A stretch of 64,000 nucleotides of DNA from Anabaena sp. UHCC 0204 (lineage in GTDB: Bacteria > Cyanobacteriota > Cyanobacteriia > Cyanobacteriales > Nostocaceae), in assembly GCF_009711975.1 (NCBI RefSeq), contig NZ_VIKW01000004.1:1-64000 (forward strand). Direction: 5' to 3'. Position numbers and translations under genes: made by a program. Shown piece after piece: positions 199 to 48,723 of this stretch. The number at the start of each line of letters is the position of its first letter. The stretch's first letter is position 1. The notes beneath the pieces are model-generated. The model had not been told where the DNA came from. It saw only the letters and a list, made by a program, of their open reading frames with translations, and did no database searches.

Positions 199-322
199 AA
201 TGGCAAAATTCTATTGCAAATTTTTGCAGTTGTGTTATAGTAATCTCAGGTTACAAACCCAAAGCATTTTGCTTTGCCCCTTTTGAAACTAAGACCGTTT
301 AGGCAACAAGGAGGTGATGCCC

Positions 323-394
323 ATGATAGAAAGTAGTATACGCATGGGTCATCAAGTTGCAGTTAGCCGGCTGTGCGCCGGGGCTGTTCTCTAA
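323..394 (+). CDS. Candidate 23-residue small protein or leader peptide
   Basis: ATG at 323 lies 8 bases after AAGGAGG (308-314), one of the best ribosome-binding sites in the window. The frame encodes 23 residues starting MIESSIRMGHQVAV and ending RLCAGAVL, with stop TAA at 392-394. An in-frame ATG at 317 is too close to the Shine-Dalgarno to be preferred. The start codon sits inside hairpin P0 of the surrounding RNA and the end of the ORF overlaps the GC-rich hairpin at 366-386, so translation would remodel the RNA. No downstream gene follows before the terminator at 498-545, so it is not an ordinary attenuator leader. Function is unknown and translation is unproven. Confidence 0.4.
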   Translation: MIESSIRMGHQVAVSRLCAGAVL

Positions 395-497
395 AAGTTA
401 GCCTTAGTTCTCTTGAGATACTAAGTTAGCTCAACTAGCTAGGCTTAACGTCGGAGTTCCTTCCGGCAGTCTGGTTGCAACTTGAAGACCCGCTAGA

Positions 498-545
498 CCG
501 CCCTGATTTAGGTTATCTGATCTAAATCAGGGCGGATAGTTTTTA
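498..545 (+). terminator. Strong rho-independent terminator
   Basis: CCGCCCTGATTTAG (498-511) pairs perfectly with CTAAATCAGGGCGG (522-535), followed by a T-rich run. It ends the transcript that carries the small ORF at 323-394. Confidence 0.9.
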
Positions 546-2983: not shown

Positions 2984-3421
2984 GTGGAACTATCGTGTAA
3001 ATCGGAATACGCAATTTTAGCGTTATTAGAGATGGCCAGTCATTATGAAAATGGTGAACCGATGCAAATTCGGCAAATTGCTACGCAACAAAAGATACCC
3101 GATCGCTATTTGGAACAACTATTAGCAACTTTGCGGCGTGGAGGTATAGTTAAAAGTCAACGGGGTTCAAAAGGCGGCTATTTATTAGCGCGAGAACCTT
3201 GGAAAATTAGTATCTTTGATATTTTAGAATGTTTAGAAGGTTTAGATGTGCAGACGACTGAGCAAGATTCTAATCCCACAAGTCTAGACAATACTCTGGT
3301 GGCAGAAATCTGGCAAGAAGCACGTCAAGCTGCAAATTCAGTGTTACAAAACTATTCGCTTCAGGATCTTTGTGAAAAACGAGATTCACGGAAGCAGTTA
3401 GATATCATGTACTACATTTAA
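2984..3421 (+). CDS. Rrf2-family transcriptional regulator (CymR-like)
   Basis: A 145-residue protein starting at GTG 2984. It has the Rrf2 winged helix at residues 1-85 (SCKSEYAILALLEMA, then QIRQIATQQKIPDRYLEQLL and RGSKGGYLLAREPWKIS). The three-cysteine cluster that holds the Fe-S centre in IscR is absent: only isolated Cys occur in the C-terminal half (ILECLEG and LCEK). This points to a CymR-type sensor rather than an Fe-S sensor. In Firmicutes CymR controls cysteine metabolism through a complex with CysK. Here the gene lies 17 bases upstream of cysK in the same direction, so control of cysteine synthesis or a CysK partnership is a reasonable inference. Confidence 0.88.
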   Translation: MELSCKSEYAILALLEMASHYENGEPMQIRQIATQQKIPDRYLEQLLATLRRGGIVKSQRGSKGGYLLAREPWKISIFDILECLEGLDVQTTEQDSNPTSLDNTLVAEIWQEARQAANSVLQNYSLQDLCEKRDSRKQLDIMYYI

Positions 3422-3438
3422 GGACATAAAAATTTATC

Positions 3439-4398
3439 ATGCAAATTGCTAAAAATATTACGGAATTAGTAGGAAGGACACCTTTAGTAGAGTTAAACCG
3501 GATTCCTCAAGAATTAGGTTGTGTGGCGAAAATTCTGGTGAAATTGGAAAGTATGAACCCTTCTGCATCGGTGAAAGACCGAATTGGGGTAAGTATGATT
3601 ACTGCGGCGGAAAAAGAAGGATTAATTGCACCTGGTAAGACGATTTTGGTAGAACCTACATCGGGAAATACGGGAATTGCCTTAGCAATGGCCGCTGCGG
3701 CTAAGGGGTATCAATTAATTTTAACAATGCCAGAAACAATGAGCGCAGAACGGCGGGCGATGTTAAGGGCTTATGGGGCGCAATTGGAACTCACGCCGGG
3801 AATTGAGGGCATGAGTGGGGCGATTCGGCGGGCGCAAGAGATAGTGGATAAGACACCTTATGCCTATATGTTGCAACAGTTTCGCAATCCGGCTAATGCC
3901 CAAATTCATCGGGAAACTACCGCTGAGGAGATTTGGTCAGATACGGATGGCCAGGTAGATATGATTGTGGCTGGTGTGGGGACAGGTGGAACGATTACTG
4001 GGGTAGCGGAAGTGTTGAAGGCACGAAAACCGAGTTTTCAAGCGATCGCTGTTGAACCTGCTAATAGCCCTATATTATCTGGGGGTAAACCAGGACCCCA
4101 CAAAATTCAAGGTATTGGGGCGGGTTTTATTCCCCAAGTCTTAAAGGTAGAATTGATTGATGAGGTGATTACGGTTACTGATGACGAAGCGATCGCCTTT
4201 AGTCGTAAATTAGCCAGAGAGGAAGGACTACTATCGGGAATCTCTACGGGTGCTGCCCTCTGTGCGGCGGTTCGTGTCGCTCAACGTCCAGAAAATTGCG
4301 ATCGCTTAATTGTTATGATTCAACCAAGTTTCGGTGAGAGATATCTCAGTACACCTTTGTTCCAAGACTTAGAAGCGCAAGGTGGAATTAAAAATTAA
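3439..4398 (+). CDS. cysK: Cysteine synthase (O-acetylserine sulfhydrylase)
   Basis: A 319-residue PLP enzyme that makes cysteine from O-acetylserine and sulfide in the cytosol. Visible signatures are the PLP-lysine segment [13 protein letters not shown] (about residues 38-50), the substrate loop [14 protein letters not shown], the phosphate-binding GTGGTITG and a C-terminal SGISTGAAL. Length is normal for the family. It follows the Rrf2 gene by 17 bases and is probably co-transcribed with it. The last codons (GGIKN and the TAA stop) lie inside an AT-rich repeat that occurs elsewhere in the window, so the C-terminus appears to have been replaced or trimmed by that element. Confidence 0.97.
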
Positions 4399-46378: not shown

Positions 46379-48017
<1,639 letters not shown>

Positions 48018-48500
48018 CTACTGACTAATTTTATACTCCTGAGCAACGTAGTAAAACAGACGATAATAATTGGCAAACTCTTGACTGCCACTTTGTCCTT
48101 GCCAGTGATATTCCAATTGCTCTTGAGTAATGGTCAACTTCATGATAGTTACTTTTTCACTAACTTCTACTACCAGTACACCAGAAACTCCTTGATTAGT
48201 CTGAAAATTAGGTTCTGGTTTGGATTTTTGGGATTTTAATAAGGGCTTACTTGCCCAAGACCGAATTTCTACAGTTTTCTTATTTGGTGAAACTAAAGCA
48301 ATACCATCACTATTGTCTGGAGTTCCTAATTCTTTCCAGGTGTTGGGATAGGGAAACTCAAAACCATAACGATCATTTCTATATATTTTCCATGTCGTCT
48401 CGTTAAGTTGGAGGTTAGTATTACACCCCCACATCATCATGCCTATGCCAACGCCTGAAGTAATGGCATACAGTGTCTTTTGTACGTGTATTGCACCCAT
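48018..48500 (-). CDS. Putative exported lipoprotein of unknown function
   Basis: 160 residues from ATG 48500 (MGAIHVQKTLYAITSGVGIG); an upstream ATG at 48545 adds a second hydrophobic stretch and is less likely. The hydrophobic run ends MMMWGCNTN, a reasonable lipobox with Cys as mature residue 1. The mature part has WKIYRNDRYGFEFPYPNTWK, a pattern similar to PsbP-like and other small extracytoplasmic domains, and EQLEYHWQGQSGSQEFANYY. No catalytic motif. Function unknown. Confidence 0.68.
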   Translation of the reverse strand: MGAIHVQKTLYAITSGVGIGMMMWGCNTNLQLNETTWKIYRNDRYGFEFPYPNTWKELGTPDNSDGIALVSPNKKTVEIRSWASKPLLKSQKSKPEPNFQTNQGVSGVLVVEVSEKVTIMKLTITQEQLEYHWQGQSGSQEFANYYRLFYYVAQEYKISQ

Positions 48501-48723
48501 AATTGCTAACAAGGAAAAGAGGTAGAAGGCTGGGGAAATAATCACCGATTACCAATTTTCTAAGTTTGATAAATTACTCATTTCTATGATTATCTCACGT
48601 AGTTATCCTAGTTTTGTTGAGAAATGTAACAAAATCACCGTCAAAACGTTTTACCATCTTGACAACTCAGAAAAGAGCCGATAAGGTGGGATACATACCC
48701 GGGTAAGACCACTAAAAAGTGAT

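Follow-up and report, generated by a model that had tools for sequence, protein, structure and literature searches.

A small RNA gene with a 23-codon ORF and competing stems in Anabaena sp. UHCC 0204, very probably a member of the ncl0160 family

The small RNA ncl0160 was first found in Synechocystis PCC 6803 (Mitschke 2011, via PMC4734099). In a subsequent survey 83 homologs were described among 89 genomes, with a possible ribosome binding site and a conserved ORF of 23-25 amino acids which was considered 'likely translated'; 47 of these ORFs end in TAA, 34 in TAG and 2 in TGA (PMC4734099; Brenes-Alvarez 2016). The Prochlorococcus/marine Synechococcus lineage was left out of that survey, and a predicted secondary structure is given in its supplementary Figure S2 (PMC4734099). 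No other paper in the open-licence literature searched names ncl0160. Another cyanobacterial RNA with a short ORF, about 250 nt in length, is yfr6, or the Downstream-peptide motif, in which a 33-aa ORF starts at nucleotide 97 and only the 5' UTR is widely conserved (PMC1242208, PMC2864571, PMC2518516). Among the Synechocystis proteins of up to 50 aa listed in PMC5126843 the shortest has 26 aa.

Here we describe an RNA gene in a 64,000-nt stretch of the genome of Anabaena sp. UHCC 0204 (contig NZ_VIKW01000004.1, positions 1 to 64,000; hereafter the window). It shares with ncl0160, as described in the main text of the survey, an ORF of matching length behind a ribosome binding site: the ORF of the window has 23 codons, and among 150 distinct cyanobacterial ORFs 140 encode 23 aa, seven 24 aa, and one each 17, 25 and 34 aa. 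All three stops are used in similar proportions (86 TAA, 62 TAG and 2 TGA), and both RNAs are widespread in heterocystous and other cyanobacteria, ours occurring in 234 of 291 Cyanobacteriia genomes. The window RNA is therefore very probably a member of the ncl0160 family, matched by description rather than by sequence, and the suggestion of a first-pass annotation, made from the sequence alone, that a translated small protein under structural control or a dual-function RNA at this place would be new does not hold for the RNA and its ORF. The RNA also resembles yfr6 in its size and in carrying a short ORF; identity with yfr6/Downstream-peptide or with Yfr103 was rejected, as by description the ORF, size or copy number differs. 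The main text of the ncl0160 survey mentions no Chloroflexota relatives, covariation or either/or switch (PMC4734099), and the open-licence literature searched yielded no report on any of the three. As far as that literature shows, what is new is the either/or architecture with its covarying helices and the occurrence of relatives in Chloroflexota.

Two better known groups of RNAs offer further comparisons. SgrS/SgrT and RNAIII are dual-function sRNAs, and like them the window RNA is a structured autonomous RNA with a very short ORF; it differs in that the ORF itself forms one strand of covarying helices. The type I toxin mRNA hok hides or exposes its start region by competing long-range pairings with its 3' part, which is the arrangement considered here, but the peptide of the window looks polar on inspection and not membrane-like. 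Of these RNAs, SgrS/SgrT and RNAIII are also named in PMC2518516.

Signals and spread of the RNA gene

The features of the gene are collected in Table 1. Taken alone the candidate promoter is weak, five such sites being present in 991 bases against a shuffle mean of 2.4. A TGnTAnnnT motif is found upstream of 72 of 88 cyanobacterial copies, where 50 rounds of shuffling gave 9.6 on average and at most 18, and of 5 of 12 Chloroflexota copies, where shuffling gave 1.0 on average and at most 4. The 5' element, scored as CCGnnnAGG within 33 nt 5' of GGAGG, is present in 65/88 and 4/12 copies, respectively. Pairing of this element with the end of the ORF (TTTAGG/CTCTAA) was rejected, with 71.3% of cells paired and double changes at shuffle level.

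Table 1. Features of the RNA gene, in window coordinates
Feature	Position	Strand	Basis
Probable own sigma-70 type promoter, TTGCAA-16-TATAGT, TG before -10	214..241	+	9/12 matches
Conserved 5' element ACCGTTTAGG	294..303	+	CCGnnnAGG counts
Extended Shine-Dalgarno (SD) sequence AAGGAGGTGAT	308..318	+	read directly
Stem A, start hairpin (316-325 with 343-353), covers start codon	316..353	+	89.6% of cells paired
23-codon ORF MIESSIRMGHQVAVSRLCAGAVL, stop TAA	323..394	+	read directly; length and substitution bias
Stem B, 5' strand GGGTCATCAAGTTG, inside ORF, shares bases with stem A	346..359	+	covariation
Local hairpin H, CCGGC/GCCGG, inside ORF, competes with stem C	367..381	+	94.3% of cells paired
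Stem C, 5' strand GCCGG, inside ORF	377..381	+	98.8% of cells paired with 463-467
Stem C, 3' strand CCGGC, past ORF	463..467	+	covariation
Stem B, 3' strand CAACTTGAAGACCC, past stop codon	478..491	+	covariation
Intrinsic terminator, 17-bp stem (498-514/519-535) and T-run	498..545	+	read directly

As the first-pass annotation had it, AAGGAGG at 308-314 is followed after eight bases by an ATG (323-325), which opens an ORF of 23 codons plus TAA. GGAGGTGATG is present in 57/57 loci found by DNA similarity alone; the invariance of the SD in alignment A2 is partly by construction, as many loci were picked by their SD motif. Other SDs occur in some members (L287, L294, L298 and L194). A pairing of the SD with a 3' CTYCC motif is present in 88.6% of cells without covariation, and rises to 97.5% when slid by one column. 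The terminator lies where it had been placed, but its stem has 17 bp and not the 14 claimed. The base of this stem (CCGC/GCGG) is nearly invariant, and its lower nine pairs are paired in 99.3% of A2 cells with four covarying pairs, as counted only in loci where the GCGGATAG motif was found by script.

The RNA behaves as an autonomous gene with a probable promoter of its own, in single copy; the second match in its own genome is the inverted repeat of the terminator itself. A DNA search recovered it in 57/60 genomes, its own included, and a pattern search with up to 3 mismatches in 108/386 genomes of the phylum, the reversed-pattern control being zero in every row. With R1, a profile that uses sequence only, covers the 5' 106 nt and was built from cyanobacteria alone, the gene was found in 118 of 130 genera of Cyanobacteriia (the source of the genome count given above) and in 41/301 genomes of the phylum taken as Chloroflexota on the strength of an Anaerolineales record (L124). 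Here the pattern matched 17/301 genomes, and one of these matches (L210) lacks an ATG where one is expected. Leptolyngbya, Nodosilinea, Thermosynechococcus, an uncultured Acaryochloris and Chloroflexota bins are among the matches listed on named contigs (at least 117 loci).

More divergent copies were detected by R1 in family f61 (E about 1e-8) and family f36 (E 2e-4 to 9e-4), which are probably Gloeobacter-like and picocyanobacterial members, respectively, under names that we infer. An f36 copy was matched by DNA in 8/16 f36 genomes, the query's own included. Judging from their sequences the f36 copies are probably relatives of the RNA; those examined have GGGTC paired with GACCC or GGCCC right before the terminator. 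In one small-genome cyanobacterium (G185) a second, partial match to this form lies some 5 kb away from the other (L313, L316). Viral contigs gave no match to the exact pattern, and plasmids gave none. Pattern matches in Scalindua (L073) and Ruminococcaceae (L093) encode peptides unlike the family and were treated as chance. No named family in Rfam 15 matches 296-545, as the earlier annotation had expected of a new RNA: the only matches are two weak ones of microRNA type to the terminator hairpin, below threshold, and 12 related loci likewise give no match at the RNA.

Of 225 loci (L001-L225), the script's motif missed L210 and L194, the latter with a 23-aa ORF behind GGAGGTGG. Four alignments were used. 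A1 holds 36/57 loci and A3 46/87 candidates. A2 holds 81 non-redundant sequences of 186 from cyanobacteria, 13/199 loci having been left out because the terminator motif was not found (among them L117, which runs off the available stretch). A4 holds 18 sequences, namely 17 of 29 distinct Chloroflexota genes (KR- or KH-bearing type) and L269, equal in its 5' part and ORF to L267, and does not include L211, which has a shifted stop.

Competing stems in Cyanobacteria and Chloroflexota

That a structured RNA lies at 296-545 is well supported. The fold of 290-550 has -105.2 kcal/mol, whereas its shuffles average -76.8 (z -6.25, 0/200 shuffles), that of 247-545 has z -4.94 (0/200 shuffles), and the stems and the ORF are conserved in relatives. 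Stem A pairs GATGCCCATG with CATGGGTCATC over 10 bp with one bulged T. Stem B pairs 352-362 with 475-485 over 11 bp, the last pair being G-U, and extends outward past an A-A mismatch (GGGTC 346-350 / GACCC 487-491). Both had been correctly located by the first-pass annotation, which listed them side by side; as bases between 346 and 353 are shared, stems A and B are alternatives and not one fold.

Stem B covaries. Its helices 1 and 2 show changes on both sides in 9/14 pairs, and B, H and the terminator base together are 92.8% paired (below 48% when slid), with 192 double-change cells where shuffling gives 61 on average (0/500; A2, n=81), so that the compensatory changes proposed as a check on the stems are present. 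Stem B is imperfect, being unpaired in 47/81 sequences at column pair 62-281, in 22 at 63-277 and in 15 at 64-276. Stem C also covaries, with double changes in 3/5 pairs and 9 double-change cells against 0.9 shuffled, and it is paired more often than hairpin H (see Table 1); against this, its covariation score of 0.120 does not surpass the 0.125 obtained after sliding by one column. Stem A shows 0 double changes in A2. Covariation could hardly appear here because the 5' strand is the invariant SD and start, which is no evidence for A either. The claim that the ATG is locked in a 10-bp hairpin thus stands as to the hairpin, which is present, conserved and predicted, but lacks covariation in both phyla.

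The Chloroflexota gene is shorter. Its SD precedes an ORF of mostly 14-18 codons, the stop codon lies close to the tip of a hairpin, and a terminator follows. Peptides of Chloroflexia such as MSSKRMGVTAGEAR and MSDCSKRQGVTAGEAL resemble the cyanobacterial M.DSSKRMG...AGAVL. The same either/or pairing is present in Chloroflexia (A4, n=18). In the counterpart of stem A the strand GGGTGTCACC pairs with the SD and start over 12 bp, with 96.8% of cells paired and 0 double changes. In stem B the same strand pairs with GGTGACCCC and the like past the stop; 93.9% of cells are paired, four pairs covary and 8 double-change cells are seen against 2.3 shuffled, although one of the 11 pairs is unpaired in 9/18 sequences. 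Where the shared strand has changed, both pairings are retained, often by way of G-U exchanges. The sequence after the stop in Chloroflexia resembles the SD and start, with GGTGA closely followed by CCC, compared with GGTGATGCCC.

By duplex energy the two phyla show a reversed pattern. Stem A is strong in Chloroflexota, where it beats at least 294/300 shuffles in 10/10 sequences (perhaps seven of them independent), whereas it is in the best 5% of shuffles for 0/24 cyanobacterial sequences; stem B reaches the best 5% in 17/24 cyanobacterial and only 3/10 Chloroflexota sequences. The weak side of each pair, together with the missing covariation of stem A, counts against a gated mRNA as the explanation of the family.

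Coding signals, gene neighbours and rival readings

The 150 distinct ORFs come from 199 cyanobacterial loci, the difference being due to overlap of loci between searches; the script kept ORFs of 10-46 codons, a range that includes all of the named-contig loci. The nonsynonymous/synonymous ratio, taken over 59 disjoint close pairs, is 0.53 (0.41-0.68) in frame and 0.78 and 1.78 in the shifted frames, and frame 0 is lowest in 954/1000 resamplings. This is a coding-type bias of the kind the first-pass annotation had looked to as support for a protein, positive if mild. A few members depart from the rule. A one-base gap in L057 gives a 34-aa ORF, and that of L074, in the symbiont Richelia intracellularis, has 25 aa; both may reflect gene decay. 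In Chloroflexota the frame or stop is lost in L211 (21 aa) and L221 (43 aa), and together with L057 these losses weigh against the reading as a peptide gene. NCBIfam holds no match for the peptide. Length, frame and substitution pattern all favour translation, and the ORF is probably translated, but these data do not prove a function of the peptide.

The ORF varies almost freely at codon 2, while its Ser codons 4 and 5 are AGT in nearly all cases; this is a sign of constraint at the RNA level and, with the mild in-frame ratio, fits poorly with a plain peptide gene. This pattern would be explained if the gene produced a trans-acting regulatory RNA with an incidental ORF, the conserved bases serving to fold the RNA and, possibly, to provide a CU-rich seed (GUUCCUUCC, 456-464) for pairing with SD regions of other mRNAs. 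The strong covariation of the stems would also be expected of such an RNA, and the conserved CU-rich stretch runs into the 3' strand of stem C. However, an incidental ORF would hardly be so constant in length (23 or 24 codons for 147 of the 150 distinct ORFs) with all three stops in use. In the 20 KR-bearing Chloroflexota genes (of 29 listed) ATG and KR lie 9, 12, 15 or 18 nt apart, each time a multiple of three, although these genes are related and represent few independent events. We consider a trans-acting RNA unlikely.

The neighbourhood of the gene bears on whether it acts in cis. The window begins within psbD, of which the final 44 codons are present (2-133, matched to the end of TIGR01152 at E 6.8e-25), and a terminator-like hairpin (170-193) separates these from the RNA. 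The order continues with an iron uptake porin gene (NF033921, E 2.3e-153), an Rrf2-family regulator and a cysteine synthase, giving psbD-RNA-porin-rrf2-cysK. The first-pass annotation was thus mistaken in stating that no gene follows the ORF, since the porin lies on the same strand, with its ATG at 1123, 578 nt past the RNA end, in a synteny that is partly conserved. Upstream, psbD is found in 69/148 scorable cyanobacterial loci; downstream, the porin is found in 73/121 scorable loci (those with more than 1500 nt available), a lower bound as the porin can lie beyond the stretch examined, often about 1.6 kb. L027 and L060, for instance, are the same gene, one without and one with the porin in the stretch examined. 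Some genomes are counted twice in both figures, which show that the psbD/porin order is common and not required.

Such an order might indicate a cis-acting attenuator or leader of the porin, or of rrf2-cysK, in which translation of the ORF controls read-through of the terminator by polymerase; in some loci (e.g. L102, L199, L200) it is rrf2 or cysK, in place of the porin, that follows the RNA within a few hundred bases, and mutually exclusive stems beside a terminator are what such a leader would have. Against it, no gene is common to the 18 Chloroflexota loci examined, the next downstream ORF is on the opposite strand in the four f36 loci and one f61 locus examined, the porin starts far beyond the terminator, and by eye no alternative partner of the terminator strand is apparent. 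The earlier view that this is not a classical attenuator is upheld by the lack of a fixed downstream gene, and a leader function appears improbable.

Some further observations concern the surroundings of the gene. In the window, 2984-4398 holds the Rrf2-family regulator (CymR model 108.5 bits, cut-off 195) immediately 5' of cysK, and this pair stands behind the RNA in many cyanobacterial loci. Related Chloroflexota loci L221, L223 and L224 have an opposite-strand ORF in common, L214-L219 have a small lipoprotein-like ORF about 45 nt upstream, and L214 has a 23S rRNA gene downstream on the opposite strand. The contig begins inside psbD (1-136), and the contigs of many relatives end near the same point, perhaps because a psbD duplication breaks assemblies there. 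Elsewhere in the window, an Rfam HEARO RNA (RF02033, 156.6 bits; 47673-47892, minus strand) lacks an adjacent large nuclease ORF, the nearby ORFs of at least 150 aa being an epimerase-like one (46379-47533) and one of 175 aa (48018-48545); it looks like an orphan copy.

It is very unlikely that the long SD serves as a decoy or sensor which holds 30S subunits, with the peptide as a by-product of sensing ribosome availability: AAGGAGGTGAT is complementary over about 11 nt to the textbook 16S tail (not this genome's rRNA), and the constancy of GGAGGTGATG would fit, but the members with different SDs and the peptide-like conservation of KR.G do not.

A proposed translational gate

The window RNA is best read as a small mRNA, or as a dual-function RNA, that would gate its own translation. 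In this proposal the RNA would be transcribed from its own promoter, end at its own terminator and be translated into a 23-residue peptide. The mid-ORF strand would be two-faced, able to pair either with the SD and start (A) or with the strand past the stop (B). When only the 5' half has been made, stem A would cover the SD and start and hinder initiation; once the post-stop strand has been made, it would capture the mid-ORF strand through B, aided by C, and free the SD and start. A ribosome reaching the stop codon would melt B and C again.

Partition-function folding was applied to three forms of each RNA: the 5' part ending at the stop, the complete RNA, and the 5' part joined to a shuffled version of the 3' part. 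In 81 cyanobacterial sequences the predicted mean unpaired probability of the SD is 0.36, 0.56 and 0.26, respectively, and that of the AUG 0.14, 0.45 and 0.15. The full RNA exceeds the 5' part in 61/81 sequences for the SD and 71/81 for the AUG, and exceeds the shuffled control in 71/81 and 73/81 (Wilcoxon p about 1e-12, an optimistic value as the sequences are related). Ten Chloroflexota sequences showed no significant accessibility shift (p 0.38-1.0), which counts against the gate as a general explanation. The gate is thus supported by predicted folding in cyanobacteria and by pairing logic only in Chloroflexota.

Overall, we estimate a probability of roughly 0.6 that this is an autonomous small RNA gene, the local copy of ncl0160, with its own promoter and terminator, a 23-residue peptide and translation gated by the RNA itself, whatever final target the peptide or the RNA may have. 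A broader proposal, which we regard as tentative, is that the peptide gene is older than, or was exchanged between, Cyanobacteria and Chloroflexota; its coding strand would pick either the ribosome binding site or a post-stop decoy, forming a self-contained gate that only complete transcripts open, for peptides of about 14-24 residues.

If true, the gene would be a good model for the control of very short ORFs, kept across most of one phylum and with relatives in a second. Its product, at about 20 residues, easily escapes notice. The covarying helices define precisely which mutations to test, and the family could enter Rfam, so that it would be seen in transcriptomes.
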